From the NCBI GenBank assembly GCA_025174535.1, contig JALBUN010000009.1, positions 1,054,001 through 1,118,000 on the forward strand: a stretch of 64,000 bases of DNA. Reading direction: 5' to 3'. A program made the position numbers and the translations under genes. The notes under the pieces are model-generated. The model saw only the letters and a program-made list of their open reading frames with translations, did no database searches and was not told the DNA's origin. The stretch comes from Cantharellus purpuraceus (lineage: Eukaryota; Basidiomycota; Agaricomycetes; Cantharellales; Hydnaceae). Below are positions 1,696-42,549 of the stretch, in pieces (the first letter of the stretch is position 1; each line of letters begins with the position of its first letter).

Positions 1696-3127
1696 TGTAT
1701 GGGAACCACCTTTTCCCTATCAAATTCCATTTATGCAGCACCAATGTGCTATTCTTTGCTTTTTCATTCCTAAATATCAGCATATATTTGATGCTTGTAC
1801 CTGGAATGGACTTATTCAAATATTCTCTATTTTTCCATATTTTTTCAGGAATATTCCATGCAGAACTCAGCTCAGAATCATTTATTTCTGCTGTGCTACA
1901 GTTGTGGACCCATAGGTGCCCACAAACCTTCCCACAGCCGGCTCTCCCCTTTTGGACCAGGCATTTGGCCTGAATTCAAGCTCAGATGTCTCTGATCAAT
2001 AAATATTCTCTAACTTAACAACCACAGCCTCTCAGGGCACTATTTTCCGTGCAGATCATCACATGACATGTGGCTATCCATGGCTGTCCAAACCAGTGCA
2101 GAAAACAGGGTGGACACCCTTCTTTTTGCCTGATCAGTGCCTAGCTCAGGGATCAGATCAGCTGATGGGTGATCAAATCAGGTGATTGCCTTGGAATATT
2201 CTACCCCTTTCCATAACATTCTAGCTGTTTCCTTCTATTATTAGATAGAACTTTCCAGAACCATTATTCAGCTCCTGATCAGTGTTAGTGCTGTGATCAG
2301 ATCCTGTGATTGGCTTGGAATATTCTACCCCTTTCTTCCACCTTCCACAACCTTCCAGTAGTTTCCATCTATTAATAGGTAGAATATTCCAGAACCATTA
2401 GTCAGCCCCTGTAAATACAATATATAAGGAGGCCATTCTGCCTCTGAAAGAATAACATATCATCACATTCTACCCATCTTCTGCACACCAGTGTGACTAG
2501 AGTGACATACAGTGTCATCCTCTATCTCAGTAACTGTTGATTACCAGTTCAAGGATCTTTTACAGTTGTGTAACTGTACTTGATTGCACTCGAAGTAGTG
2601 ATATTCCTGCTTTGGGCGTGAGTGTAGTATCTGCCTCACGTGACTACGAATCTACAGGGTGAGATTGTCTGTCGATAGTCCTGCCATTAGTGCTCTTGTT
2701 TAAGTAACTAGTGTGTACTCCCTTTGCAGAGCATTAGAAGCTTGAACTCGTGTGAAGCAGTTGCTAGACTACTTCACACATTGCTGTTACCCGCTTCTGA
2801 GTGCCACTGGTTGGACGGTTGGATTCATCCACCTACTTCCTTTAGCCTCTAAGTGCATTCCCCTCTTTTTGGAATATCTGGACCCCTAAGCGTCCGTGAA
2901 CTCTAGACTCTGGAAGTCTTATTCATTTCTTGCTGCTAAGAAACGTATTACCTTTCTGCGTATAGTCTGCATTGACCAATACAAAGGATTGTAACCAAAG
3001 TACAAACGTTAAATCGTTTCTGGAGTTGTGCTGCAGCAGGGTTTGATATTCTTCTCAGCTGTTCATTCACGGAATTGTGGTGATTTAGAGTTTGCCCTAA
3101 CACCATAATTTTGCGGGTTCCAAAACA
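1696..3127 (+). repeat. A1 LTR-like repeat, full length (1,432 bp)
   Basis: Starts TGTATGGGAACC and ends GGGTTCCAAAACA, giving TG…CA ends with imperfect 12-bp inverted termini. Near-identical copies lie at 40,896–42,327 (+) and 9,710–11,141 (−), and a diverged one at 23,118–24,531. An AATAAA lies about 300 bp in, and a TATATAAGGAGG box near 2,420 would suit an LTR promoter. No gag or pol is attached, so these are solo LTRs or a non-autonomous family. The flanks do not match: GAAGG on the left, GCGGG of Gypsy integrase on the right. Confidence 0.85.
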
Positions 3128-4338
3128 GCGGGCTTTGGTGGAGGCAAGTTCTTTCTCAGGGTGGATGGAGATGTTCGGATGGTAGCCTTTATTAGCAAAG
3201 AACAGAGAGATGCCAGTAGTCGCGTTCGGAGCATTGTTGTAGGCAAACTCTGCTATCAGAAGTAGGTCAGCCCAGTTGTCTTGTTGATAGTTACAATAGA
3301 TTCGGAGGTATTGTTCCAGGGATTGATTCATTTGTTCTGTTTGTCCATCTCCTTCAGGGTGGTATCTGGAGGTGAAATGAAGCTTCATGTCAAGAGCCTT
3401 TCCTAATGTGTGGAAGAAGGAGGACACGAACTCTGAGCCCCGATCGGATGTGACATGCAATGGGACTCCGTGTTTAGAGAATACATGGAGAATGAACAAT
3501 TTAGCTAGTGAGGCAGAGGTGATGGTGTCATGCATTGGAATGAATAGTGACTGTTTGGTGAACCTGTCGACAATAACAAGTATGGTATCATATCCAAGCG
3601 ATGGGGGGAGCTTCTCTATGAAATCCATGGAGATGGAGTTCCATGGTTGCTCCGGGACCGGAAGTTGCTTAAGTGTTCCGTAGGGTTTGTGCCTTTGCGA
3701 TTTTGAGCGCATACACGTGGTGCAGGAGTTACAGTAGTGTTGAATGTATTCTCGCATTTTTGGCCATACATAGTCTTGTCGGATTAATCCTTGTGTGTGA
3801 TTTTGCCCGAAATGGCCTGAGATCGGGTGATCATGGTAATACTGCAAAACTCAGAGTCAGAGACCATTGGCATTGGGGATGTATATCCGGTTGTTGTGTC
3901 AGAGGTGTCCTTCGGGGTCAAGTGACCATTTTGGATCGGAAGGGTCATCCAAGTGTTTAACTGCAACAGGATCGGATCGGAGTGATGAGCGGATGTCGGA
4001 GCGGAGTTGGTCGATATCCATAATGGTGACAGCTTGGAGGGTGGGAGTCATGAGGGTGGATGCTTGTAGGGACGATGCCAGCTGCTCGTTAGTAAACACA
4101 GGGCGAAAGTTGTGGGGGTTTACAGTGGCATAGTCACTATTCCCCTCTTTAGGGTAGATGTCCCATCATCTAGTTAAAGTGTCGGGCTTTGCTCCGAGTC
4201 GACCAGGATGGAAACGGATAATGAGATTGAACTGAGATAGGTATTCGGACCATCGGACCTGTCTCCGGGTGAGCAGTTTCGTTGTGGAGAAGTATTCTAA
4301 GTTTTTGTGGTCAGTTATGACGTCCACCGGATCGGAGG
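3128..4338 (-). pseudogene. Chromovirus RNase H end and integrase, broken
   Basis: The RNase H tail shows [13 protein letters not shown] and [14 protein letters not shown]. Next is the linker, then the integrase zinc finger: YYHDHPISGHFGQ with CNSCTTCMRSK. The catalytic core has SMDFIEKLP, TSDRGSEF and PEGDGQTEQMN, so D, D and E are all present. The frame ends at KELASTKA, where A1 replaces the rest. Stops near 4,164, 3,897 and 3,860 break the frame. The C-terminal and chromodomain part is preserved in copy 2 at 13.3–14.3 kb. Confidence 0.9.
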
Positions 4339-9433: not shown

Positions 9434-9709
9434 TGTTGGGGTATATGCAATTCTAAACTACTTCAAATAAGGACTATTATTTAGTAGTTCAAAGGTATTT
9501 CAAATGTTCTAATGAATGTACTTATTTTTCACATTTTTGTGTATTTGAGCCCACAAGTATACACAATGGGTCAGTTGCTGATATAATATGTCATGTGACC
9601 TCAAAGAGCACTTGCGTGCAAGCAAACAACACATATTACATAAGCAGCAGAGTTCATCCACTTCAGCCAAAAGCAGCCACAGAAGCTTCTGACACCTTCC
9701 TGGACCTTC
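9434..9709 (+). repeat. Repeat B terminal fragment
   Basis: Starts with the B terminus TGTTGGGGTATATGC and corresponds to the reverse complement of 21,190–21,460, with a 12-bp insertion after the first 15 bases. It ends CCTTC against the A1 copy at 9,710. Together with 1,195–1,695 it reconstitutes B across GAAGG, the probable target duplication of an A1 insertion. Confidence 0.82.
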
Positions 9710-11141
9710 TGTTTTGGAACCCGCAAAATTATGGTGTTAGGGCAAACTCTAAATCACCACAATTCCGTGAATGAACAGCTGAGAAGAATATCAAACCCTG
9801 CTGCAGCACAACTCCAGAAACGATTTAACGTTTGTACTTTGGTTACAATCCTTTGTATTGGTCAATGCAGACTATACGCAGAAAGGTAATACGTTTCTTA
9901 GCAGCAAGAAATGAATAAGACTTCCAGAGTCTAGAGTTCACGGACGCTTAGGGGTCCAGATATTCCAAAAAGAGGGGAATGCACTTAGAGGCTAAAGGAA
10001 GTAGGTGGATGAATCCAACCGTCCAACCAGTGGCACTCAGAAGCGGGTAACAGCAATGTGTGAAGTAGTCTAGCAACTGCTTCACACGAGTTCAAGCTTC
10101 TAATGCTCTGCAAAGGGAGTACACACTAGTTACTTAAACAAGAGCACTAATGGCAGGACTATCGACAGACAATCTCACCCTGTAGATTCGTAGTCACGTG
10201 AGGCAGATACTACACTCACGCCCAAAGCAGGAATATCACTACCTTGAGTGCAATCAAGTACAGTTACACAACTGTAAAAGATCCTTGAACTGGTAATCAA
10301 CAGTTACTGAGATAGAGGATGACACTGTATGTCACTCTAGTCACACTGGTGTGCAGAAGATGGGTAGAATGTGATGATATGTTATTCTTTCAGAGGCAGA
10401 ATGGCCTCCTTATATATTGTATTTACAGGGGCTGACTAATGGTTCTGGAATATTCTACCTATTAATAGATGGAAACTACTGGAAGGTTGTGGAAGGTGGA
10501 AGAAAGGGGTAGAATATTCCAAGCCAATCACAGGATCTGATCACAGCACTAACACTGATCAGGAGCTGAATAATGGTTCTGGAAAGTTCTATCTAATAAT
10601 AGAAGGAAACAGCTAGAATGTTATGGAAAGGGGTAGAATATTCCAAGGCAATCACCTGATTTGATCACCCATCAGCTGATCTGATCCCTGAGCTAGGCAC
10701 TGATCAGGCAAAAAGAAGGGTGTCCACCCTGTTTTCTGCACTGGTTTGGACAGCCATGGATAGCCACATGTCATGTGATGATCTGCACGGAAAATAGTGC
10801 CCTGAGAGGCTGTGGTTGTTAAGTTAGAGAATATTTATTGATCAGAGACATCTGAGCTTGAATTCAGGCCAAATGCCTGGTCCAAAAGGGGAGAGCCGGC
10901 TGTGGGAAGGTTTGTGGGCACCTATGGGTCCACAACTGTAGCACAGCAGAAATAAATGATTCTGAGCTGAGTTCTGCATGGAATATTCCTGAAAAAATAT
11001 GGAAAAATAGAGAATATTTGAATAAGTCCATTCCAGGTACAAGCATCAAATATATGCTGATATTTAGGAATGAAAAAGCAAAGAATAGCACATTGGTGCT
11101 GCATAAATGGAATTTGATAGGGAAAAGGTGGTTCCCATACA
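9710..11141 (-). repeat. A1 LTR-like repeat, full length, inverted copy
   Basis: Reverse complement of the 1,696–3,127 copy, of equal length and nearly identical sequence (a few differences, for example near 10,243). Its 3' end faces repeat B; its 5' end faces A2 sequence at 11,142. The two copies form a ~1.4-kb inverted pair around 3,128–9,709. Confidence 0.88.
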
Positions 11142-13333: not shown

Positions 13334-14328
13334 ACGACACCATACTCGTGATTGTTGACAGGTTCACTAAACAATCACTATTTATTCCGACGCATGACAC
13401 CATCACCTCTGCCTCACTAGCTAAATTGTTCGTTCTCCACATATTCTCTAAACACAGAGTCCCATTGCATGTCATGTCCAATCGGGGCTTGGAGTTTGTG
13501 TCCTCCTTCTTCCGCACATTAGGAAAGGCTCTTGACATGAAGCTTCACTTCACCTCCAGATACCATCCTGAAGGAGACAGACAAACAGAATGAATGAATC
13601 AGTCCCTGGAACAATATCTCCGAATCTATTGTAACTATTGATCTACTTCCGATTGCAGAGTTTGCCTACAACAATGCTCCGAACGTGACTACTGGCATCT
13701 CTCCGTTCTTTGCTAATAAAGGCTACCATCCGAACATCTCCATTCACCCTGAGAAAGAACTTGCCTCCACCAAAGCCCACCAATTCATAACCGACCTTGA
13801 TCAACTACACCAACATCTCTGAGAAACCATCTCCGATGCCCAGAAACAATATCAAGTCTCTGCAGACTGATGCCGCATTCCGGCTCCGGACCTGCAAATC
13901 AGAGACAAAGTATTTGTTAAGGCCAAACATTTCCGGACCACCCATCCATCGAAGAAACTCTCTGAGAAATACTTAGGTCCTTATGAGGTCCTTCACCCTC
14001 TGACCACTTCCAAGCAGTTCATCTGGTCTTCCATATATCAATGCTCAAACCTGCAACTATGAACGAGATCTCCAGTCACACGCAACCCCCACCTCCCCCG
14101 ATCATCATCAAAGGAGACAATGAATATGAGATATCTGAGATCCTGGACTCGAAGATCAACCATCAATACAAGTGCAAGCTCCAGTACTTAGTCAAATGGA
14201 CTGGATACGAAGGCACCGACAAAGAGTCCTCATGGATCTCTGCATCTGAACTCGATCACGCATCCGAATCCATCTCTGACTTTCACTCTGCTTATCCAGA
14301 CAAACCTGGCCCTCTTATGAATCTTTAA
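13334..14328 (+). pseudogene. Chromovirus integrase C-terminal half and chromodomain
   Basis: The integrase core shows LVIVDRFTKQSLFIP and PLHVMSNRGLEF (Asp of TSD now Asn), then YHPEGDRQTE. Stops follow at the EQMNQ position and later. The tail has VFVKAKHFRTTHPSKK and LSEKYLGPYEVL. The chromodomain ORF (14,041–14,328) contains YEISEILDSKI, LQYLVKWTGYEG and SSWISASEL, which supply the aromatic cage and W-x-GY signature. A chromodomain marks the chromovirus clade and targets integration to methylated-histone chromatin. Frame breaks make this copy inactive. Confidence 0.9.
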
Positions 14329-15215
14329 GTTTGATTACTAATGCTAATTCTATTATTTCACATCATCATTTTATTACAAGTCACAAGGAAAATTACCAGC
14401 CTGCCCAAAAAACCCCGAATGAATATCACTCTGCCTCATTTTTCTCCGCTCTGAAATTTATAATCATTTTCATTTTATTTTTATACATTGCATTTCCTTT
14501 TCCCCTTCCCCTTATCTACCTCAGGCTCCGTCTCCAACTCATCATCACTCTCTACATCCAACACCCAATCTTTCTCATCCCCCATGTCCAAATCCTCGTC
14601 CAAAGGGGCCATGAACTTCTGCAACTGACGTAACTCGGCTGTCTGCCAACCCTCCAGAACCTCCTTCTGTTTCATCGTCTTCACCAAATCCACTAGCAAC
14701 CCCTCCGTCCACCAGAGGTGCTCCGACTGCAGGTTAACCAGCCGGATAAGCTGGCCCACAGTACTATTGGGTGCGGAGACGCACCCCATACCTGCACCGG
14801 TCATTGCCCCTTCTGATCTGACACCACTACCCCCGGCTGCCACAGCACCCGTCTCCGTCTGCCACTTTTTGGTCAGATGACCTTCCGATTCTTTCTCCGC
14901 TCCTCCTTGTCCTGCTGTTCTGCTGCCACCTTCTCCATCTCATGCTTGTGAAGCTGGATCGCTGACCTAGTGACATGCAGCTCCTTCTTATGGGTTGCCA
15001 ACACATGACTCTCCACCTTGCACCATATGACCCTCTGATCCGCCTCCCACTTCTCCGTATCGGCACTCAGGGTATGCCTTCAATGAAAAGACTGCGACAT
15101 CGAGGTTCTTCTTGGTGGTAGCAGCATAGAGCTCTGCTCTTTTGCGAGCCTCGACTGTGGCTACCCAAGCCATCTCCTTGTAACAATTTGAAGTTGGATC
15201 CGGCTCTGCATCCGT

Positions 15216-16631
15216 TGACGAGCCAGGATGCATCGAGGACGCATATCGAACCACTCTGACAGTCCAACTCCACCAGCATCTTTTCGTATCAACTTTTAAA
15301 TAGCGCCGCAACTCCCTATCCACCTCAGTCTCTAATTCGAGCCATCGATTGTCACTCATGTTTCATCGCCATCGATCATTATCAGCCTTCTATTCACACC
15401 GATCCTTTCATCATCATTCACATGGCTTCCCATTCTATTCCCCTCTCCAACATCACTTCTAATAATACATCACACTGGTCTCTGGACACAGAGGACTATC
15501 AAAAATACGCCAAGCTCCACGGGCATGTTAAGCCACCTCCACGTGTCAAAATACTTCCAAAACTCTTTCAACGTCCAAGATCCCCACCATGTCTCTCTTA
15601 TGCCATTGGCAATCCCATATTCTTTCACAATTCCGTTGAACCATATACATTCCTCGACATTTCACCTCTATATCGTAACACGGATAGAAGAGTCGAATGT
15701 GAGGTAGAATTTCAGTCGCCATCGCTGACCTATCCTCCCACTTCAATCCAACTCAGGTTACATCGTGTCAGGCAAAGGGACCGAATACTCTTGGAATGGA
15801 ATACCATATGGAGATGGATCACTAAGACAATAAGGAGTATTTGTTGTGGATGCTGACTGAAGTCCTCATGTGACTCAGGGTCAATTAACCTTCGGAGCTG
15901 TAGGGAAGATGGTATTGGTGGACGTTTCTATTGTTCTTTTATATGACTCACCCCTGTTTCATCTTTTAATTCATTCATACACGACTTACTCATTCTTGTT
16001 CTATTTTTGGTTCTTTTATTACTCATCACCCCCTATTCTTACAAAGATTACCCCTATCTGTCGTTTCATTTCTCCATGATTTCCCCCTTTAGTAGTTCAA
16101 CTTCACATGCTTCGTCAGCTGGCTTGATCAGCATTTCTTGCATCATATTGCATCATTTGCTCCTCATATTGTGTCGTTGTGCCCTGGGGATTTGTATATA
16201 AAAGGGTGCTAGTTTTTGCCTTTGGAATCAATCAACAAGTTTTCAGCCAACGCTCTAAAGTCAAAGTCCAAGCTCTAAGTCTACGCTCTACACTCTACAT
16301 CACAATCCATCATCTCTACACTGAGGTAAAACACCTTGGTTCAATGATCAGATTTCCCTCCGCCACCGAGAGGTTGCTTCTCCTGAAACCAGCTTTCACA
16401 TACCTCCCAACCGGGCTCCGCATTGTCATCCAGTCACAGAGCACGATCAGCCATCGGGACCGACCTTTAGCTCCCATCCCCATCCAACCACAGAGCACTA
16501 TCCCACTTCCCTGTTACTTACCCCTTGCCCTGATTGATCTTTGGAGTGCTGAACAACTGCGTTACACACCGTCTGTTTGCTAGGACTGTTGCGCGCAGGC
16601 TTATAGGATCTATTCCTTAAGCAAACCGACA
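15216..16631 (+). repeat. D element, copy 1 (1,416 bp, TSD CCGT)
   Basis: Starts TGACGAGCCAGGATGC and ends AACCGACA, flanked by CCGT on both sides (15,212–15,215; 16,632–16,635). Removing it rejoins the antisense ORF in frame (VGT–DAEPDP), matching the copy at 30.6 kb, which confirms the boundaries. It contains a TATATAAAAGGGTGC box (16,194–16,208) and a 144-aa ORF. TG…CA ends and a 4-bp TSD suggest a solo LTR of an unknown element. Confidence 0.85.
15422..15856 (+). CDS. Conserved 144-aa ORF inside repeat D, copy 1
   Basis: The product begins MASHSIPLSN and contains TEDYQKYAKLHGHV, AIGNPIFFHNSVEPY, FLDISPLYRN and YPPTSIQLRLHRV, ending RSICCGC. The same frame is open in D copy 2 (21,752–22,186) with few substitutions. 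It is shortened by a CGA→TGA stop in D copy 3. A truncated D at 18,260–18,545 has the same start. I recognise no domain, signal peptide or membrane segment. It may be a protein coded by the repeat family, or an old captured gene. Expression is unknown. Confidence 0.5.
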   Translation: MASHSIPLSNITSNNTSHWSLDTEDYQKYAKLHGHVKPPPRVKILPKLFQRPRSPPCLSYAIGNPIFFHNSVEPYTFLDISPLYRNTDRRVECEVEFQSPSLTYPPTSIQLRLHRVRQRDRILLEWNTIWRWITKTIRSICCGC

Positions 16632-17427
16632 CCGTCCCAACATCCACACCCGCCTTGGGCTCCGCATTTGCATCGAGCCCCATATTGGCATTGGGATCCG
16701 CCTCCACCTCCACCCTCTCTGCCTCCGCCGCTTCATCTTCCTCAGCCGCACCCAACCCAAATAAGGGCCATACCCATGGACGTAATGGCGAGTCCACCGC
16801 AGGGACAGTTGTCGGACGAGTTGTCTCCGTCCATGTAATGGAGATGATGGCGACCTCAGGGGTCCCTGCCCGTATTGGCACACTTGGACTTCCTGGGTGG
16901 CTGGTCCCCCCTGCCCCAGTCACCTCCTCTACCTCCATGGCAGCTTCTAGCTCGTGCACCTGCTCCTCCACTTCCTTCAGTCTTGTGGCCTCCATCGCAG
17001 CCGCAAGTTCCTTGACCCTGTGGGCTCTCTTGGCCTTCACTTCCTCCTCTTTCCTTCTCCGTTCCATCTCCACCACCTCTTTCCGCCTCTGCTCCTCCTC
17101 CTTCTGTCTCTGTTCCGCCTCCTCCTCCTCCTTCCGTCTCTGTTCCACCTCCTCCTCCTCCTTCCATCTCCGTTCCACCACCACCTCCTCCTCCTTCCAT
17201 CTCCATTCCACCACCTCCTCCTCCTCCTTCCATCTCCGTTCCACCACCACCACCACCTCCTCCTCCTCCTCCTCCTTCCGTCTCCGTTCTGCTTCCTCCT
17301 CCTCTTTCCGTTTCTGCTCCTCTTCCTCTTCCTTCTGTCGGGCCAAGAGCAACTGCTCAAGCTTGGCCACGCTCATGCTTGCCAAAGGGTTTGACATTGT
17401 TGAGGATAAGACCTCAATCATGCCCCT

Positions 17428-17437
17428 CCTTTTATAT
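17428..17437 (-). promoter_or_regulatory. TATA box of the antisense ORF, copy 1
   Basis: The minus strand reads ATATAAAAGG, followed 31 nt later by ATG of MSNPLASM. The same motif precedes the second copy of the ORF at 29,755–29,764. It lies between the ORF and the 3' LTR, so transcription would start next to the LTR and run antisense to pol. Confidence 0.6.
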
Positions 17438-17538
17438 GTCTCCAGACCCCCAGTATAACTCCAACTGCACCCAACCGTCTCACCTATTCAATCCATGGAC
17501 ATGAGGCCTCAGGGGCTCGGCCTTAAATGGAGAGGTAC

Positions 17539-18091
17539 TGTTATGACTATATTCATTAACGTCCAGATCCCTGTCCGATCCACTCAGATCCCCACGCATA
17601 TGAAATCTATACTCCATTTGGAAACTGCCACATCTCCATCTACCTGTCTGATTGTCACCACCGATTCTGCCCATCCGTCTCTGGTTCCAATTGACACATC
17701 AGCATCACCATAGGAACCCGGACATCCATCCCCATCGGACTCGGACATACTCATGTAAGGCTGTCGGCCTCGGAGACCCATCACTGGAGTAATTATTATT
17801 AGATTTCAAAATATGTATTTAAGTTGCCTGACTGGGGACTTCATTCCCCAGTTCGAATATCGAATCACACCTAGTTCCTAAGTCCAATCCTAACTCTCTA
17901 AGTTGTACTCCATCTCCAAAATCTCGGACACCGGTATTAGTGAGGGCGCAGCACATAAGCTGAAGCCAAGTCCATCCCAACCCCCATGACGTGCTCCAAC
18001 TCCAACCCAACCTCCAACCCAACCTCCAACCCAACCTCCAACCCAACCTCTGACCCAATCTCCAACCCCCAATCGGACCTAGTGCATAACA
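17539..18091 (+). repeat. E-family 3' LTR (553 bp) with polypurine tract
   Basis: Starts TGTTATGACTATATTC and ends GTGCATAACA. A purine-rich AAATGGAGAGG stretch, a plausible polypurine tract, lies directly before it, and the same LTR–internal junction occurs at 29,654/29,655. The CpG in CAGTTCGAATAT is intact here. Near 17,995–18,065 it holds about five 12-bp CCAACCTCCAAC-type repeats, which are expanded in the copy at 42.3 kb. Confidence 0.88.
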
Positions 18092-18259
18092 GTTTCCAAC
18101 AGCTTGCCTCAAATAACCAATGGGGAGACACTGCACTCTGATGCCAAGTTTATGTTGGCCTTCCATCCTGCATCAAGGACAAGATATCATGTGTCAACAC
18201 TGGACACATGTCTGAGAGGTACTCTGTCATCTCCACCAACATGGGCTTTTTGCCCACTG
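18092..18259 (+). pseudogene. Chromovirus gag fragment
   Basis: Reads FQQLASNNQWGDTAL and then HPASRTRYHV in another frame. This matches the middle of gag in copy 1 (near 8,100 on the minus strand). It abuts the LTR on the left with no matching target duplication and repeat D on the right, so it is a recombination remnant. Confidence 0.75.
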
Positions 18260-29144: not shown

Positions 29145-29654
29145 TGTTATGCACTAGGTCTGATTGGGGGTTGGAGTTTGGGTTGGAGTTTAGGTCAGAG
29201 TCAGAGCAGGAATCAGGGTGCATCATGGGGGTCAGAACAGACTTGGCTTCAGCTTATATGCTGCACCCTCACTAATACCTGTGTCTGAGATTTTGGAGAC
29301 AGAGTATGACTTAGACAGTTCAGATCAGACTTAGGAGCTAGGTGTGATTTGATATTCAGACTGGGGAATGAAGTCCCCAGTTGGGCAACTTGGATACATA
29401 TTTGAAATCTAATAATAATTACTCCAGTGATGGCTCTCCAAGGCCGACAGCCTTATGTGAATATGGATGTCCGGGTTCCTATGGTGATGCTGATGCATCA
29501 ATCGGAACCAGAGGTGGATGAGTGAGATTGATGGTGACAATTGGACAGAGTAAATGGAGATGTGATGGTTTCCAAATGGAGTATAGATTTCATGTGTGCA
29601 GGGATCTGAGTGGATCAGATGGGGATCTGGGCATTAATGAATATAGTCATAACA
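29145..29654 (-). repeat. E-family LTR shared by two internal regions
   Basis: Reads TGTTATGACTATATTC to GTGCATAACA on the minus strand. On its 5' side (higher coordinates) lies the polypurine tract and antisense-ORF end of one element. On its 3' side lie a 55-bp LTR remnant (29,089–29,144) and the primer site plus gag of another. One LTR with internal sequence on both sides points to LTR–LTR recombination between tandem elements. Confidence 0.8.
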
Positions 29655-29754
29655 GTATCTCTCCATTAAGGCTGAGCCCTTGAGGCCTCATGTCTGTGGA
29701 TTGAATAGGTGAGATGGTTGGGTGCAGTTGGAGTTATACTGGGGGTCTGGAAAC

Positions 29755-29764
29755 ATATAAAAGG
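29755..29764 (+). promoter_or_regulatory. TATA box of the antisense ORF, copy 2
   Basis: ATATAAAAGG, 27–30 nt upstream of ATGATG at 29,791. It is at the same place as in copy 1 and in a block conserved between copies. Confidence 0.6.
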
Positions 29765-29790
29765 AGGGGCATGTTGAGGTCTTATCCTCA

Positions 29791-30930
29791 ATGATGTCAA
29801 ACCCTTTTGCAAGTATGAGTGTGGCCAAGCTCAAGCAGTTGCTCCTGGCCCAACAGAAGGAAGAAGAAGAGGAGCGGAGATGGAAGGAGGAGGAGGAGAG
29901 ATGGAAGGAGGCAGAGGAGATGGAACGGAGACAGAAGGAGGATGAGGCAGAATGGAGACAGAAGGAGGAGGAGGAGGCAGAATGGAGACAGAAGGAGGAG
30001 GAGGAGGCAGAATGGAGACAGAAGGAGGAGGAGGAGGCAGAATGGAGACAGAAGGAGGAGGAGGAATGGAAATGGAAGGAGGAGGAGGAGGAATGGAAAG
30101 AGAGGGAGGTGAAGGAGGCAGAAAGGAAACAAAAGGAGGAAGAAGTGAAGGCAGAGCAAGCATGCAAGGTCAGGGAGCTTGTGGCCACAATGGAGGCCAT
30201 GAGGCTGAAGGAAGTGGAGGAACAGGTGCATGAGCCAGAGGCTGCCATGGAGGTAGAGGAGGAGGTGACCAGGGTGGGGGTGACTAGTCACCTGGGGAGT
30301 CCGAGCATGCCAATACAGGCATGGACCCCTGAGGTTGCCATTATCTCGGTCACATGGACAGAGTTGACCCATCTGACAACTGCCCCACTGGTAGACTCAC
30401 TGGTGCATTTGTGACCATGGCCATTATTTATGGCAGGTGCGGCTGAAGAGGATGACACAGTGGAGGTGGAGAGGGCAGAAGTGGAGGTGGAGAGGGCAGA
30501 AGTGGAGGTGGAGAGGGCAGAAGTGGAGGTGGAGAGGGCAGAAGTGGAGGTGGAGAGGGCAGAAGTGGAGGTGGAGAGGGCAGAAGTGGAGGTGGATTCC
30601 AATGCAGACATGGAGCCCGACGCAAATCCAGAGCCCAAGGTGGGTGTGGATGTCAGGACAGATAAGGAGCCTGATCCAACCTTGAATCATTATGAGGAGA
30701 TGGCCTGGGTAGCCACAGTTGAAGCTCGCAAATGGGTGGAGCTATATGCTGCTACCATGAAGAATCTTGAGGTCATGGTTTTCTCACTGAAGGCGTACCC
30801 AAGCACTGATATGGAGAAGCAGGAGGCAGATCAGAGGGTCATATGGCATAAAGCAGAGGATCGCATAGTGGCAACTCACAAGAAGGAGCTGCATGTTGCT
30901 AGGTCAGCAATTCAGCTTCGCAAGTGCAAG
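29791..30930 (+). pseudogene. Antisense coiled-coil ORF of the chromovirus, copy 2
   Basis: Begins MMSNPFASMSVAKLKQLL. A 30-bp unit (AEWRQKEEEE) is repeated four times, then RELVATMEAMRLKEVEEQ, the Pro/Thr segment and a stop near 30,412. It resumes at 30,430 with an 18-bp unit (VERAEV) repeated about six times, then DANPEPKVGVDVRTDKEPDP, EMAWVATVEARKW, AATMKNLEVMVFSLKAYP and VATHKKELHVARSAIQL. A2 cuts it at 30,931. Here VDVRTDKEPDP is uninterrupted, proving where D inserted in copy 1. The repeat units differ from copy 1, so the coiled-coil length is variable. Confidence 0.72.
30461..30592 (+). repeat. 18-bp tandem repeat in the antisense ORF
   Basis: GTGGAGAGGGCAGAAGTG repeated about six to seven times with almost no divergence, encoding VERAEV. 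In copy 1 the same place has a single diverged unit, so the array expanded after the copies separated. Confidence 0.8.
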
Positions 30931-37965: not shown

Positions 37966-40895
37966 TGTTAAGCAGACACGTTGCCATTATAGTAAACAAC
38001 TCAGTCTTGTGAAACAGAAAGACTATATTCCGACAAACCTATAGTAAACAACTACAAGGATTGTCAGCTACTGAAGAAATAGAACATAGGGATATTTACC
38101 TCAGTCTTGTGAAACAGAAAGACTGAGGTACTAAACTACATAGTAAGTATTAAATAAACCAGCAGAACTGCCCCTATTGATGACTCCAGTCAAGATCTGT
38201 AGTCACACTTGTGGACTGTAGTGGATCCCATTAGGGACACCTCATTCTGTCCAACATGCCCACTCATGATGCGTCCTCAAAGTCATGACCCAAGCCCATT
38301 CCCTTCACAAATACCTCAAACTTCTGCTTTGGAAGTCCCTTGGTGAGTACATCCACGATTTGTTCTCCTGTGGGAATGAAATCCAGAACTAACTCCTCCT
38401 CAGCAATTTCCTCCTCAGCAATTTTTTCGCGAAGGAAATGATAGTGAATGTCTATATGCTTCATTCGATCATGGAATTCTGGATTCTTTGCAAGGGCAAT
38501 CGCAGATTGGTTATCCATAATGAGATGAGTTGGCGAGTCCTGTGCTTGTCCTATTTCTGACAAGAAAATTCTAATCCATGTTGCTTCCTTTGCAGCATGT
38601 GCGCCGGCCGTGTATTCGGCTTCGGTACTTGATTGAGCAGTCGAGTGCTGCTTGCGTGAGCTCCAACTAATTGTGCCACCATTCAACAGGAATATGTAGC
38701 CCGTAATGGAACGATGATCGTTCTTGTCGGCGGCCCAGTCTGCATCAGCGTAACCAGTGAGTGTCTTATTCTTTCCATTCCCAAACACAAGGCTCATGCT
38801 CTGTGTGCCGTGAAGATAGCGAAATACGCGTTTTAGCGCATTCCAATGCTCATCGCCTGGATTTGCCGCAAACTGGCTTAAGACACCCACTGCATGTGCA
38901 AGGTCAGGCCTTGTTCCAATCATGGCATACATGAGGATCCCACCACACTCTGGTAGGTTGTGGCATCCATCTCTGGTGTCGATAACTTCATCAATGACAA
39001 GTTTGGCACCATAGGAGTTGAAATGGAGTGGCAGTTAGCCATACCATGTCAATCCAGCACATCCATTATATACTGGCACTGTGAGACCTTCAGCATATGG
39101 TTCTTGCGATCTCTGGTGACCTCCATGCCAAGAATCCAGTGAGCTTCACCAAGGTCTGTCATTTCAAATCTTCTGTTTAGCTCAGATTTGATATTCTCAA
39201 CTGCCACTAGTGAATTTGAAAACAGCAATAGATCGTCCACGTAAATTGCAATAATTATGCATGTTCCGCCATTTGACCAGCAGAAAATGCCATGATCTGA
39301 GTGGCATCATTTGAAGTTCAACTTCTCAAATTCGGTGCATATCTTGTTATACCATTGTCGGCTCGCTTGCTTAAGTCCATATAGGCCTTTCTTCAGCCTC
39401 CATACAACGTCCGTCTTTCAGAAACCAGGAGGTAAATGCATATATATCTCCTCATCTAAGTCTCCATTAAGGAACACTGTCTTGATGTCCATCTGGTGCA
39501 ATTCCAGATCGTCTTGAGCCGCAAGAGCAAGTAGCATCCGAATTGAGGTAAATTTAGCCACTGGTGCAAAGGTTTCGGTGTAATCGTTTCGGTGTAATCA
39601 ATGCTTGCAACCTGTGTAAAGCCACATGCAACAAACCATGCCTTATATCTGGTAATTTCTCCATCCAGTCCCCTTTTTACCTTGAATACCCACTTACAAT
39701 CTACTACCTTTCGGCCTTTAGGATGTTCAACTTCATATAACTCTGTTTTGACAAAGGACATGAGTTCCTCGGCACAGGTGGCCTTCCAGAGCGATGCATC
39801 TGGACCAGACATGGCTTCATCATAAGTTTGGGGTTCCTTGTTTGTCTGCGCCATATTCACTTCATTTGCACCCACTAAAGCAGGCTTTGGTTTTTGACCA
39901 TATGAGGTTACATTGTAGCCTGGATCATCATCAGGAATAGGGGAACAATGAGTTCGTCCAGATCGACGAGGTTCAGGATGTGGCGGTGGCAGTATGGGAG
40001 TGGAGTTGTTGACCAATGGTGGTATGTCATCCTCATCACTTTCTCCACTGCTAAGCTCACTATCTGGTCTGTCCACATTCTCTAGGACTGTGGTTGCTTC
40101 GTCCTCAGAGTCTTCGAGCTCTGTGGGTGGAATTGAGGAAACAGAAGTAGTTGGTTCCATCTCAGAGAGTGGATCAACTTCAATAAGTACTCGTTCCTGC
40201 TCCTTCCCAACATCTTCTTCGAAGATAACATCTCGGGACTCATATACAGTGCCAGTGCGGCGATCAATGCAGCGGTAAGCCTTCTTATTAGCCACATATC
40301 CAATGAAGACACACTGAACTGTCTTTGAATCCAGTTTGCACCATTTTTCATCCGGGACATGGACATAGGCCTTACAGCCAAATATGTGGAATCAGTTCAA
40401 GTCTGGTGAGTTGCCGCTCCACTTTGTGTATGGTATACCACCTGACAGGGCTCAAGTAGGTACAATGTTTCAAATGTGTGCTGCATATTCCACAGCATCT
40501 GCCCAATATGAGTTTGGTAAATTGGCATCATGAAGCATGCTCCGAGCCGACTCAACTAAGGTGCGGTTCATTTGTTCTGCCATGCCGTTTTCCTCTGGTG
40601 TGTAAGCATTGGTCCTCTCATGTTGAATACCCTTTGCTAGTAGATACGCATGAAAATTCTGAGAGGTATATTTGCCTCCACCATCGCTCCTCAAGTTTTG
40701 GATGCAAGCTCCTGTTTCGGCTTCCACATGTTCAACGAAGGCCTTGAAATGATGTAATACCTCGCTTTTCTCCTTCATAAAGGCTACATGCAGATACTGA
40801 GAGGCATCATCAATAAAGGTTGCAAAGTAGGAATAACCGGTGTGTGATGTGACCTGCATCTTTCCACAGACATCTGAATAGATGCGAGCAAGTGC
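37966..40895 (-). mobile_element. Copia retrotransposon 3, 5' part missing
   Basis: Minus strand: integrase, RT and RNase H followed by a 291-bp 3' LTR (37,966–38,256, ends TGTTGGACAGAATG and GCTTAACA). The LTR contains two direct copies of CAGTCTTGTGAAACAG. The element is cut at 40,895 by A1; gag, protease, the integrase zinc site and the 5' LTR are absent. Different from Copia 2 in sequence throughout. Confidence 0.88.
38264..40870 (-). pseudogene. Copia 3 pol: integrase, RT and RNase H, broken
   Basis: The integrase core has FATFIDDAS, LRSDGGGKYTS and EENGMAEQMNRT. The linker is acidic. RT has KVVDCKWVFKVKRG, a frameshift at DYTET (a 14-bp duplication), and an intact IYVDDLLLFSN near 39,235. 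RNase H has TGYADADWAAD, STEAEYTAG, NQSAIALAKNP and KHIDIHYHFLR. It ends DFEDAS. A stop interrupts YIMDVLD near 39,047. Better preserved than Copia 2 in its catalytic boxes. Confidence 0.9.
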
Positions 40896-42327
40896 TGTAT
40901 GGGAACCACCTTTTCCCTATCAAATTCCATTTATGCAGCACCAATGTGCTATTCTTTGCTTTTCCATTCCTAAATATCTGCATATATTTGATGCTTGTAC
41001 CTGGAATGGACTTATTCAAATATTCTCTATTTTTCCATATTTTTTCAGGAATATTCCATGCAGAACTCAGCTCAGAATCATTTATTTCTGCTGTGCTACA
41101 GTTGTGGACCCATAGGCGCCCACAAACCTTCGCGCAGCCGGCTCTCCCCTTTTGGACCAGGCATTTGGCCTGAATTCAAGCTCAGATGTCTCTGATCAAT
41201 AAATATTCTCTAACTTAACAACCACAGCCTCTCAGGGCACTATTTTCCGTGCAGATCATCACATGACATGTGGCTATCCATGGCTGTCCAAACCAGTGCA
41301 GAAAACAGGGTGGACACCCTTCTTTTTGCCTGATCAGTGCCTAGCTCAGGGATCAGATCAGCTGATGGGTGATCAAATCAGGTGATTGCCTTGGAATATT
41401 CTACCCCTTTCCATAACATTCTAGCTGTTTCCTTCTATTATTAGATAGAACTTTCCAGAACCATTATTCAGCTCCTGATCAGTGTTAGTGCTGTGATCAG
41501 ATCCTGTGATTGGCTTGGAATATTCTACCCCTTTCTTCCACCTTCCACAACCTTCCAGTAGTTTCCATCTATTAATAGGTAGAATATTCCAGAACCATTA
41601 GTCAGCCCCTGTAAATACAATATATAAGGAGGCCATTCTGCCTCTGAAAGAAGAACATATCATCATATTCTACCCATCTTCTGCACACCAGTGTGACTAG
41701 AGTGACATACAGTGTCATCCTCTATCTCAGTAACTGTTGATTACCAGTTCAAGGATCTTTTACAGTTGTGTAACTGTACTTGATTGCACTTCAAGTAGTG
41801 ATATTCCTGCTTTGGGCGTGAGTGTAGTATCTGCCTCACGTGACTACGAATCTACAGGGTGAGATTGTCTGTCGATAGTCCTGCCATTAGTGCTCTTGTT
41901 TAAGTTACTAGTGTGTACTGCCTTTGCAGAGCATTAGAAGCTTGAACTCGTGTGAAGCAGTTGCTAGACTACTTCACACATTGCTGTTACCCGCTTCTGA
42001 GTGCCACTGGTTGGACGGTTGGATTCATCCACCTACTTCCTTTAGCCTCTAAGTGCATTCCCATCTTTTTGGAATATCTGGACCCCTAAGCATCCGTGAA
42101 CTCTAGACTCTGGAAGTCTTATTCATTTCTTGCTGCTAAGAAACGTATTACCTTTCTGCGTATAGTCTGCATTGACCAATACAAAGGATTGTAACCAAAG
42201 TACAAACGTTAAATCGTTTCTGGAGTTGTGCTGCAGCAGGGTTTGATATTCTTCTCAGCTGTTCATTCACGGAATTGTGGTGATTTAGAGTTTGCCCTAA
42301 CACCATAATTTTGCGGGTTCCAAAACA
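40896..42327 (+). repeat. A1 LTR-like repeat, full length (1,432 bp)
   Basis: Nearly identical to 1,696–3,127. The left flank is Copia 3 integrase (CAAGTGC), the right flank is CCTTC and then the LTR minisatellite. No target duplication, so at least one side arose by recombination. Confidence 0.88.
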
Positions 42328-42549
42328 CCTTCTACAACTCCAACCAAACCTCCAACCAAACCTCCAACCAAACCTCCAACCAAACCTCCAACCAAACCTC
42401 CAACCAAACCTCCAACCAAACCTCCAACCAAACCTCCAACCAAACCTCCAACCAAACCTCCAACCAAACCTCCAACCAAACCTCCAACCAAACCTCCAAC
42501 CAAACCTCCAACCCAATCTCCAACCCCCAATCGGACCTAGTGCGTAACA
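42328..42549 (+). repeat. E-family LTR 3' piece with expanded 12-bp minisatellite
   Basis: About 14–15 units of CCAACCAAACCT (42,338–42,510) followed by the LTR end CCCCCAATCGGACC…GCGTAACA. Units are almost identical. They read as LQPN or GWRF repeats in translation, but there is no sign of coding. At 42,549 the end is fused head-on to an LTR in the opposite direction. Confidence 0.85.

Follow-up and report, generated by a model that had tools for sequence, protein, structure and literature searches.

An antisense gene between pol and the 3′ LTR of a chromodomain-bearing retrotransposon family in Cantharellus purpuraceus

A chromovirus with an antisense gene

The window that we analyzed, a stretch of 64,000 nucleotides from Cantharellus purpuraceus contig JALBUN010000009.1, contains an LTR retrotransposon in which the chromodomain closing pol is followed by a long antisense open reading frame (ORF), a purine tract, and a + strand LTR (Table 1). 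The initial annotation of this DNA had described the same order, with the antisense ORF running from an ATG at 17,397 to a stop at 14,481 and the LTR beginning at 17,539, and these coordinates were borne out. The ORF does not overlap pol: it is located entirely on the 3′ side, ~150 nt beyond the pol stop codon. Another in-frame ATG lies upstream of its start, at 17,421. Of 28 copies, 25 contain an AATAAA within the 190 nt adjoining the chromodomain, which is weak evidence because this stretch is A-rich. A second copy with the same LTR–TATA–ORF order, also reported in the annotation, was found on the other strand; its antisense ORF is interrupted by an in-frame stop at 30,412–30,414.

Table 1. 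Features of the window copy and of the second copy.
Feature	Coordinates	Strand	Remarks
Chromodomain and stop, C terminus of pol	14041..14328	+	Pfam PF00385, 38.4 bits (cut-off 25.1)
Spacer, pol stop to antisense stop	14329..14480	.	AATAAA on antisense strand
Antisense ORF, C-terminal piece	14481..14939	-	Stop at 14481; stop-free in frame up to 14939
Deletion site in window copy (~259 nt relative to L011)	14900..14911	.	~11 nt common to both ends
Antisense ORF, middle piece	14988..15212	-	Out of frame beyond KAYP, ending at stop 14988; ORF 15359..14988, first part within D
Insertion D, an LTR-like repeat (TGACG...CGACA) that contains a TATA	15216..16631	+	Foreign to element
Antisense ORF, N-terminal piece: MSNPLAS start, E/K/R coiled-coil repeats, acidic linker	16632..17397	-	
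Antisense leader and promoter block	17422..17538	-	Overlaps + strand purine tract adjoining LTR
3′ LTR, TGTTATG...CATAACA	17539..18093	+	
Second copy, whole (diverged, truncated)	29168..30924	+	Antisense ORF from 29791, one in-frame stop
Second copy, LTR	29168-29654	-	
Second copy, promoter/PPT block	29655-29770		
Second copy, antisense ORF	29791 to ~30924	+	Match ends ~30924

Domain content, paired LTRs, and a target-site duplication identify the family as a Ty3/gypsy LTR retrotransposon with a chromodomain (a chromovirus). The chromodomain (PF00385) was found with Pfam profiles in both the window copy and L013, and the genome contains at least 150 chromodomain matches. L013, together with L055, constitutes a complete copy with the order LTR–gag–pol–chromodomain–antisense region–LTR, bounded on either side by the 5-bp target duplication AGTGT and carrying LTRs identical at 510 of 529 aligned positions. 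DUF4939, zf-CCHC, RT_RNaseH, Integrase_H2C2, and SH3_Tf2-1 scored above their Pfam cut-offs in L013, with rve (30.5 versus 32.6) and Ty3_capsid (19.2 versus 29.1) below theirs, in a scan that took up pol from L013:3439, beyond the expected place of the reverse transcriptase domain.

The antisense ORF is real and part of the element, as the annotation had held, and its region lies between pol and the 3′ LTR in most of the copies examined. Among the 30 chromodomain copies closest to that of the window (the window copy included), the antisense region, or at least its 3′ end, adjoins the chromodomain in 29, which are all of the assessable copies; in the thirtieth, a nested insertion obscures this region. 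L018 was considered as a copy lacking the ORF and rejected, because the LTR found there is the 5′ LTR of a separate element that has inserted, together with its gag, into the spacer. The prospect raised in the annotation, that full-length copies might mostly lack the ORF, was thus not realized among these 29, of which only L013, among the copies fetched, was followed to both LTRs and the target duplication. Genome-wide, 77 of the best 150 antisense matches had a listed chromodomain match within 6 kb, and in 75 of these 77 the antisense match lay downstream of the chromodomain on the opposite strand, at a median distance of 462 nt among the matches listed. Of these best 150 matches, 39 have an uninterrupted frame of ≥500 codons.

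Purifying selection on the C-terminal half of the antisense frame

The window's own gene copy (L016 in our copy alignments) is broken three ways: by insertion D, by a frameshift, and by a deletion of ~259 nt. The annotation had envisaged an intact gene of ~520 amino acids whose frame rejoins exactly once D is removed. The frame does rejoin at the D junction, where CCGT repeats (15,212–15,215 and 16,632–16,635) flank the insertion, but beyond D it is lost to the frameshift, and the gene as a whole is not intact. The deleted ~259-nt stretch is present in L011 and other copies; segments 1–430 and 420–732 of ORFc lie 248 nt apart in L011, with similar spacing in other copies, and by arithmetic the deletion removes a cluster of six cysteines that we describe below. 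The frame is uninterrupted between its first ATG and its stop in L019 and L024, which encode 559 and 592 amino acids, respectively, and the remaining copies translated alongside them were open in part only.

The E/K/R-rich half of the frame is no proof of coding, because it is low in complexity and open in several frames, and the number of its repeats varies between copies (for example, L015). These properties would also suit a long frame that had arisen by chance in purine-rich, low-complexity DNA. The evidence of coding sits in the C-terminal half, and our selection test covered only the part after the E/K/R repeats, in 26 copies, with a change counted as shared when its minor allele occurred in at least three of them. 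In the antisense frame, 23 of 33 shared non-CpG changes were synonymous (null 0.31, z = 5.0), and the two other frames of the antisense strand gave z scores of –1.6 and –2.8. The mirror frame on the pol strand reached 3.7, yet it contained a mean of 4.9 stops per copy and was open in 0 of 26 copies; we therefore rejected coding in this frame and attribute its raised synonymous fraction to a by-product effect. As controls, the integrase–chromodomain region gave 34 of 37 synonymous changes (z = 8.9), and the LTR gave z scores of –0.7 to 1.0 for its 6 shared sites; with all 48 non-CpG sites the range was –0.6 to 0.2. When CpG sites were included the signal was weaker (141 of 361 synonymous, z = 2.8). 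The dN/dS ratio, which the annotation had put forward as a check for neutral evolution, likewise spoke against neutrality, at 0.38 among nine copies chosen as open and 0.11–0.26 against the second copy. The antisense frame is under purifying selection as a protein in its C-terminal half, in a strand- and frame-specific manner. This specificity in the post-repeat part, with an LTR control near zero, refutes a chance frame for the C-terminal half and makes that explanation extremely improbable overall.

Indels were dropped as evidence of coding. Although 30 of 41 were multiples of three, most of these were repeat counts of the same events (a 3-nt difference in L024 and a 12-nt difference shared between copies), and only 3 of 14 single-copy indels were multiples of three, such that private indels keep the frame no more than chance would, as a chance frame predicts. 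Internal stops in register were present in 13 of the 26 copies, and 12 of 15 stops were CGA-to-TGA changes. Eight copies shared the same stop (R448), just after the cysteine cluster; a single inherited truncation was rejected as its origin, the tree requiring six changes, five of them forced by well-supported branches.

The predicted protein and its putative promoter

The annotation's picture of a coiled-coil-like, E/K/R-rich protein fits the N-terminal half, and the more telling part is the conserved cluster C-X2-C-X6-C-X12-C-X2-C-X6-C (C399, C402, C409, C422, C425, and C432 in L054), which was not there for the annotation to see, the window copy having lost it. The six cysteines are retained in 24–26 of the 26 copies, and a seventh, at position 328, in 23 of 24 readable copies. 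The variable cysteines of L024 outside the cluster are mostly R or H in other copies, reflecting CpG decay, and with the seventh cysteine also retained, their contrast with the cluster is less marked than it first seems. The spacing fits that of the fungal Zn2Cys6 domain, C-X2-C-X6-C-X(5-12)-C-X2-C-X(6-8)-C. The halves of the Pfam Zn_clus profile aligned to the cluster in swapped order, with profile positions 20–32 on the first half and 1–13 on the second, at 15.2 and 16.7 bits and thus under the cut-off of 21. The likeness to Zn_clus therefore lies in the cysteine spacing and the residues of each half, and no domain in the normal half order was found at the curated cut-off; the profile gave no match in the full L054 protein or for either cluster half submitted alone. 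AlphaFold predicted no confident fold over the cluster (pLDDT ~31–50 with 9–10 close rows) and, with moderate confidence, helices before and after it. The protein also contains two basic patches, TKKRR and KGKRKR.

No homologue was found in the protein collection, either among the 7998 candidates sharing most words that were scored or in a separate search of 764 candidates, nor in IMG/VR contigs, and PDB searches returned no significant match (0 in one, and in the other 6 with E values of 0.43 or worse). These negatives say little about the spread of the gene. Hydrophobins bear out the host as a fungus; the Plavaka transposase, looked for as a mushroom marker, gave no match, which carries no information because its controls were likewise empty. 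The host genome does have ordinary Zn_clus genes (19 matches), and these, with the half-motif similarity, would be compatible with a captured host gene of the Zn2Cys6-regulator type, or a piece of some other mobile element, carried along as a passenger of no benefit to the retrotransposon. We consider such an origin improbable, given that no assessable copy lacks the gene, that a subfamily with ~81% identity in its LTRs has it in truncated form, that it is under selection, and that no host homologue appeared among the best 150 of ~500 candidates.

Upstream of the gene is a TATA 10-mer at 17,430–17,439, read on the – strand and identical in 10 of 10 other aligned copies; TATAAAA was present in 9 of 9 sequences compared. 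The annotation had suggested that antisense RNA could damp pol. An RNA made at this position from the conserved TATA would be antisense to sequence in the 3′ part of the genomic RNA; to cover pol it would have to extend further, because the whole ORF sits downstream of pol. We think it quite improbable that such an RNA is the functional product, acting as double-stranded RNA or by silencing the element with the ORF as a passenger, since an RNA role explains neither the strand- and frame-specific codon selection nor the retained cysteine cluster.

Known antisense genes and a proposed role

An antisense gene at this place is not categorically new: plants have examples in Grande, RIRE2, and Retand, and among fungi the chromodomain element Boty has brtn. 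Boty-like elements with brtn are reportedly the subject of Zhao et al. 2011 (Virology 417:248). The annotation knew of no described fungal case, but passages of three papers report, for the Boty-like elements of Botrytis cinerea, a gag-pol with CHROMO and the antisense gene brtn, located after pol and ahead of the 3′ LTR (PMC7264820, PMC4227169, PMC8365987), and brtn is stated to be absent from the last B05.10 annotation (PMC8365987). Boty is likewise a fungal Ty3/gypsy element with a chromodomain, and its likeness to the present family, as drawn from these descriptions, is one of gene order. The antisense protein described here looks new.

The plant genes at this place (aORF-3R) include gene23 of Grande, RIRE2, ORF4/TRP28 of Retand, and ORF2 of PvRetro13; according to the cited passages, Grande's antisense gene has its own promoter and a nuclear protein, the PvRetro13 product has an SMC domain, and TRP28 has predicted DNA binding (PMC7264820, PMC11963269). 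Unlike the present family, these elements have plant hosts, and Retand is described as belonging to a non-chromovirus lineage. The passages cited name no zinc-cluster domain for the plant genes, and the words 'zinc' and 'coiled' are both absent from the main text of PMC11963269. In the open-access literature, by titles, abstracts, and cited passages, we found no fungal LTR element with an antisense gene of the zinc-cluster type. The HBZ promoter of HTLV-1 is described as lying within the 3′ LTR (PMC7264820), whereas the TATA box here is outside the LTR. The Pfam profile searches of the fungal antisense protein found no bZIP. HBZ, in contrast, is a bZIP protein.

For the role of the protein we tentatively favor, at slightly less than an even chance, a nuclear, dimerizing, DNA-binding accessory protein that regulates the element and is made from its own TATA promoter. 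Antisense transcription would start at this TATA box, just inside the 3′ LTR, and translation probably at MSNPLAS, 39 nt from it, to give a putatively nuclear product of ~550–590 amino acids. The N-terminal E/K/R coiled coil is predicted to mediate dimerization and the six-cysteine zinc cluster to bind nucleic acid, with TKKRR and KGKRKR as candidate nuclear signals and a C-terminal helix following. The protein would most likely act in trans, binding element DNA (the LTR or its own promoter) and tuning sense expression, by analogy with HBZ in HTLV-1 and with proposals for Grande gene23 and Retand TRP28. Against this reading, CGG/CCG triplets of the LTR, the possible targets of a zinc cluster, showed no special retention.

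The basic patches, cysteine cluster, and coiled coil would equally well suit an accessory factor of replication or integration, which would ride the pre-integration complex and either import it to the nucleus or pick sites beside the chromodomain integrase. A chromodomain element could use a second reader of chromatin or DNA, and a role of this kind has been proposed for the plant class, in the passages cited (PMC7264820). We regard this alternative as rather unlikely: a separate antisense promoter would uncouple its dosage from that of gag-pol, and our results provide no link to particles or to integrase. Also doubtful is a more specific form of the regulatory reading, in which the family makes a transcription regulator of its own, specific in the sequences that it recognizes. 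The protein would be a coiled-coil dimer whose Zn2Cys6 cluster is circularly permuted; expressed from the antisense promoter, it would bind the LTRs of all copies in trans, as a fungal zinc-cluster counterpart of HBZ that evolved beside a chromodomain integrase.

Most antisense genes known to adjoin the 3′ LTR come from plants and deltaretroviruses, and what they do in retrotransposons is described as unsettled (PMC7264820, in the passages cited). The family described here adds a fungal case that is high in copy number and bears a chromodomain; its antisense protein is under purifying selection and has a recognizable conserved cysteine cluster. If the permuted zinc cluster is confirmed, a fungal domain would be present here in an unusual arrangement, and the importance of the antisense protein to the element becomes a question for DNA-binding and reporter tests.

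The antisense ORF as part of the element

The initial annotation had assigned the antisense ORF to the chromodomain Ty3/gypsy element, and its distribution across the 40.15-Mb genome, in which the window lies on contig C9, bore out this assignment. Hydrophobin (PF01185) gave 15 matches above cut-off in this genome and none in any of 14 control genomes, which together with its Zn_clus matches marks the genome as fungal. Among the 30 chromodomain copies closest to that of the window (the window's own included), 29 had the antisense region, or at least its 3′ end, adjoining the chromodomain, with the region covered only in part by the stretch examined in L021, L022 and L034. The spacer of L018 held a nested second element (5′ LTR, then gag; 1173 nt, 89%), which hides the state of this copy, so that the region was present in 29 of 29 assessable copies. 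Among the best 150 antisense matches listed, 77 had a listed chromodomain match within 6 kb; all of these lay on the strand opposite the chromodomain, 75 of them downstream of it, with 72 no more than 600 nt away, and the other two at 2.4 kb upstream. Because both sets comprised the best 150 matches listed, antisense matches lacking a chromodomain partner are uninformative.

Features of the element copy in the window
Feature	Position	Strand	Remarks
Chromodomain	14041-14328	+	Precedes antisense ORF
Antisense ORF, three pieces	After chromodomain, before purine tract	-	Window copy
Repeat D	15216-16631 (break 15213-16634)		1416 bp; TGACG...CGACA, LTR-like; internal TATA near 16195
3′ LTR	17539-18093	+	555 bp; preceded by purine tract

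One copy, L013, is a complete element, comprising a target-site duplication (AGTGT), LTR, DUF4939 gag, CCHC, RNase H, integrase, chromodomain, antisense region and LTR. Its antisense frame is broken by a copy of D (an LTR-like repeat foreign to the element) and a stop. Of 529 positions compared between its LTRs, 19 differ, 17 of them by changes of the CpG type, implying that CpG decay is dominant and that the insertion is probably young. These differences also point to methylation-linked decay rather than general point mutation. Separately, some copies (window 42332-42549; L034 2224-2415) carry a tandem expansion, in 12-bp steps, of the LTR segment at ~458-530.

The block between LTR and antisense ORF, which also holds the purine tract, contains TATAAAA, whose first base precedes the first ATG by 15 nt and that of MSNPLAS, the probable protein start, by 39 nt. 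This motif was found in all nine sequences compared (seven copies, the window and copy 2, a diverged, shortened copy in the window), and the surrounding 10-mer was the same in all ten other copies aligned; L024, a copy outside this ten-copy set, differs immediately beside TATAAAA. The block as a whole shares 93.5% identity with the window copy, versus 88.5-93.2% for LTR segments, so that its conservation does not clearly exceed that of the LTR start. Copy 2 retains MSNPF and has its first ATG out of frame, which favors the second ATG as the start. Of 28 copies, 25 have AATAAA within the 190 nt adjoining the chromodomain, which is weak evidence for a signal in so A-rich a stretch.

Selection on the antisense frame

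The antisense ORF is under selection as a protein and does not evolve neutrally, the outcome that the initial annotation had named as counting against its reading. For the 327 codons that follow the coiled-coil repeats, 33 copies were aligned to L024 and 26 retained; L016 (the window's own), L021, L022, L032, L034 and L037 were too short, and L018 had no match to the region. Each two-allele site was scored as synonymous or not in all six frames, and the null was obtained by moving each change to a like site within the same copy. Of 139 non-CpG changes, 69 were synonymous in the antisense frame (null 0.30, z 5.3), as were 23 of the 33 found in at least three copies (null 0.31, z 5.0) and 35 of 91 singletons (z 2.1), the weaker singleton signal being what decay of most copies after insertion would produce. 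Including CpG sites weakened the signal (141/361, z 2.8). For all non-CpG changes, the other two frames of this strand gave z values of -1.4 and -3.4. One pol-strand frame, which has third positions in common with the antisense frame, gave raised values too (z 4.1, and 3.7 for shared changes), but with a mean of 4.9 stops per copy and none of the 26 copies open, we rejected it as coding.

The same procedure gave 34 synonymous of 37 shared changes in the integrase–chromodomain control (z 8.9; 31 copies) and, in the LTR control (17 copies), z between -0.7 and 1.0 for shared changes, comprising only six sites, and between -0.6 and 0.2 for all 48 non-CpG sites. Mean Nei–Gojobori dN/dS was 0.38 (range 0.22-0.75) in nine copies chosen as open, versus 0.24 for integrase–chromodomain in seven of these copies; comparison with copy 2, which belongs to a diverged subfamily, gave antisense values of 0.11-0.26 (at most 86 codons; dS 0.65-1.19). 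Thus, the constraint is real yet weaker than that on pol. Antisense RNA alone, as a rival product, would leave this codon-level selection unexplained. We did not count indels as coding evidence: 30 of 41 were multiples of three, but most were one 3-nt L024 difference and one 12-nt difference common to five copies, recounted per copy, and only 3 of 14 private indels kept the frame. We are aware of no previous frame-specific test of selection for an antisense gene of this kind in a fungus.

Decay of gene copies and the inserted repeat

The window's antisense ORF was broken by insertion of D, with CCGT duplicated, by a frameshift beyond KAYP that brings in a stop at 14988, and by the loss of ~259 nt between repeats of ~11 nt, which by arithmetic takes out roughly residues 363-449, cysteine cluster included. 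An in-register internal stop was present in 13 of 26 copies, and 12 of the 15 stops were CGA-to-TGA changes relative to L024. At residue 448 (numbering of the L054 copy), just after the cluster, CGA had become TGA in 8 of 26 copies (L012, L013, L017, L023, L026, L040, L044 and L045), requiring six changes on the tree, five of them forced by supported branches; this codon is apparently a CpG-decay hotspot.

D is a high-copy repeat, with at least 41 further matches of ~1.3-1.4 kb at 93-98% identity among the best candidates scored. Its flanks were read in ten copies (the window, L003, L004, L005, L006, L007, L008, L011, L012 and L013); the 4-bp flanking repeats center on CG and were exact in seven and matched at three of four letters in the other three, with CG in the left repeat in all ten. 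Such a CG-centered target preference would be unusual. Another repeat, of 1433 bp, has three window copies (1696-3128, 9709-11141 and 40895-42327; two direct, one inverted) at 99-100% identity and is probably a young insertion family.

Architecture and putative role of the antisense protein

The antisense protein of L054 (720-2498) has 592 amino acids. Residues 1-160 are 36% E, plus R and K, in repeats of variable number, followed by an acidic linker and then a cysteine cluster with TKKRR behind it; helices are predicted with moderate confidence on either side, a stretch before the cluster and a second, long one after TKKRR, and the C-terminal tail is basic. The coiled-coil repeats (window 17040-17340) grow and shrink among copies, and the array is much longer in L015 (~800-2150).

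The six cluster cysteines (C399, C402, C409, C422, C425 and C432 in L054) are retained in 24-26 of 26 copies. Of the four L024 cysteines outside the cluster within the tested part, 328 is also retained (23 of 24 readable copies), and 372, 424 and 545 are present in 5-6 of 26, elsewhere being mostly R or H, a pattern expected from CpG decay. Their spacing within the cluster, C-X2-C-X6-C-X12-C-X2-C-X6-C, agrees with that of the fungal binuclear zinc cluster. The Pfam Zn_clus profile, which had 19 matches over cut-off in the genome, matched the first half of the cluster with positions 20-32 and the second with positions 1-13, both below cut-off. Because these half matches stand in reverse order along the protein, fall below cut-off, and disappear when each half is submitted alone to Pfam, we regard the cluster as Zn2Cys6-like, possibly permuted, and not as a Zn_clus member.

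In the passages compared, an antisense gene at the same place and orientation is already known from other elements. Boty-like gag-pol with a CHROMO domain is described in a text that mentions brtn (PMC4227169), brtn is also mentioned in BcGypsy1 (PMC8365987), and in Retand the antisense TRP28, predicted to bind DNA, occurs in 97% of clusters (PMC11963269); the word 'antisense' does not occur in the main text of a fungal LTR element survey (PMC3248453). The present family resembles these known cases in place and orientation, and its protein has a domain that these passages do not name for the other antisense genes.

The antisense protein is best read as a putative accessory protein of the element that would be nuclear, form dimers and bind nucleic acid; by analogy, it may regulate transcription rather than act in import or integration.
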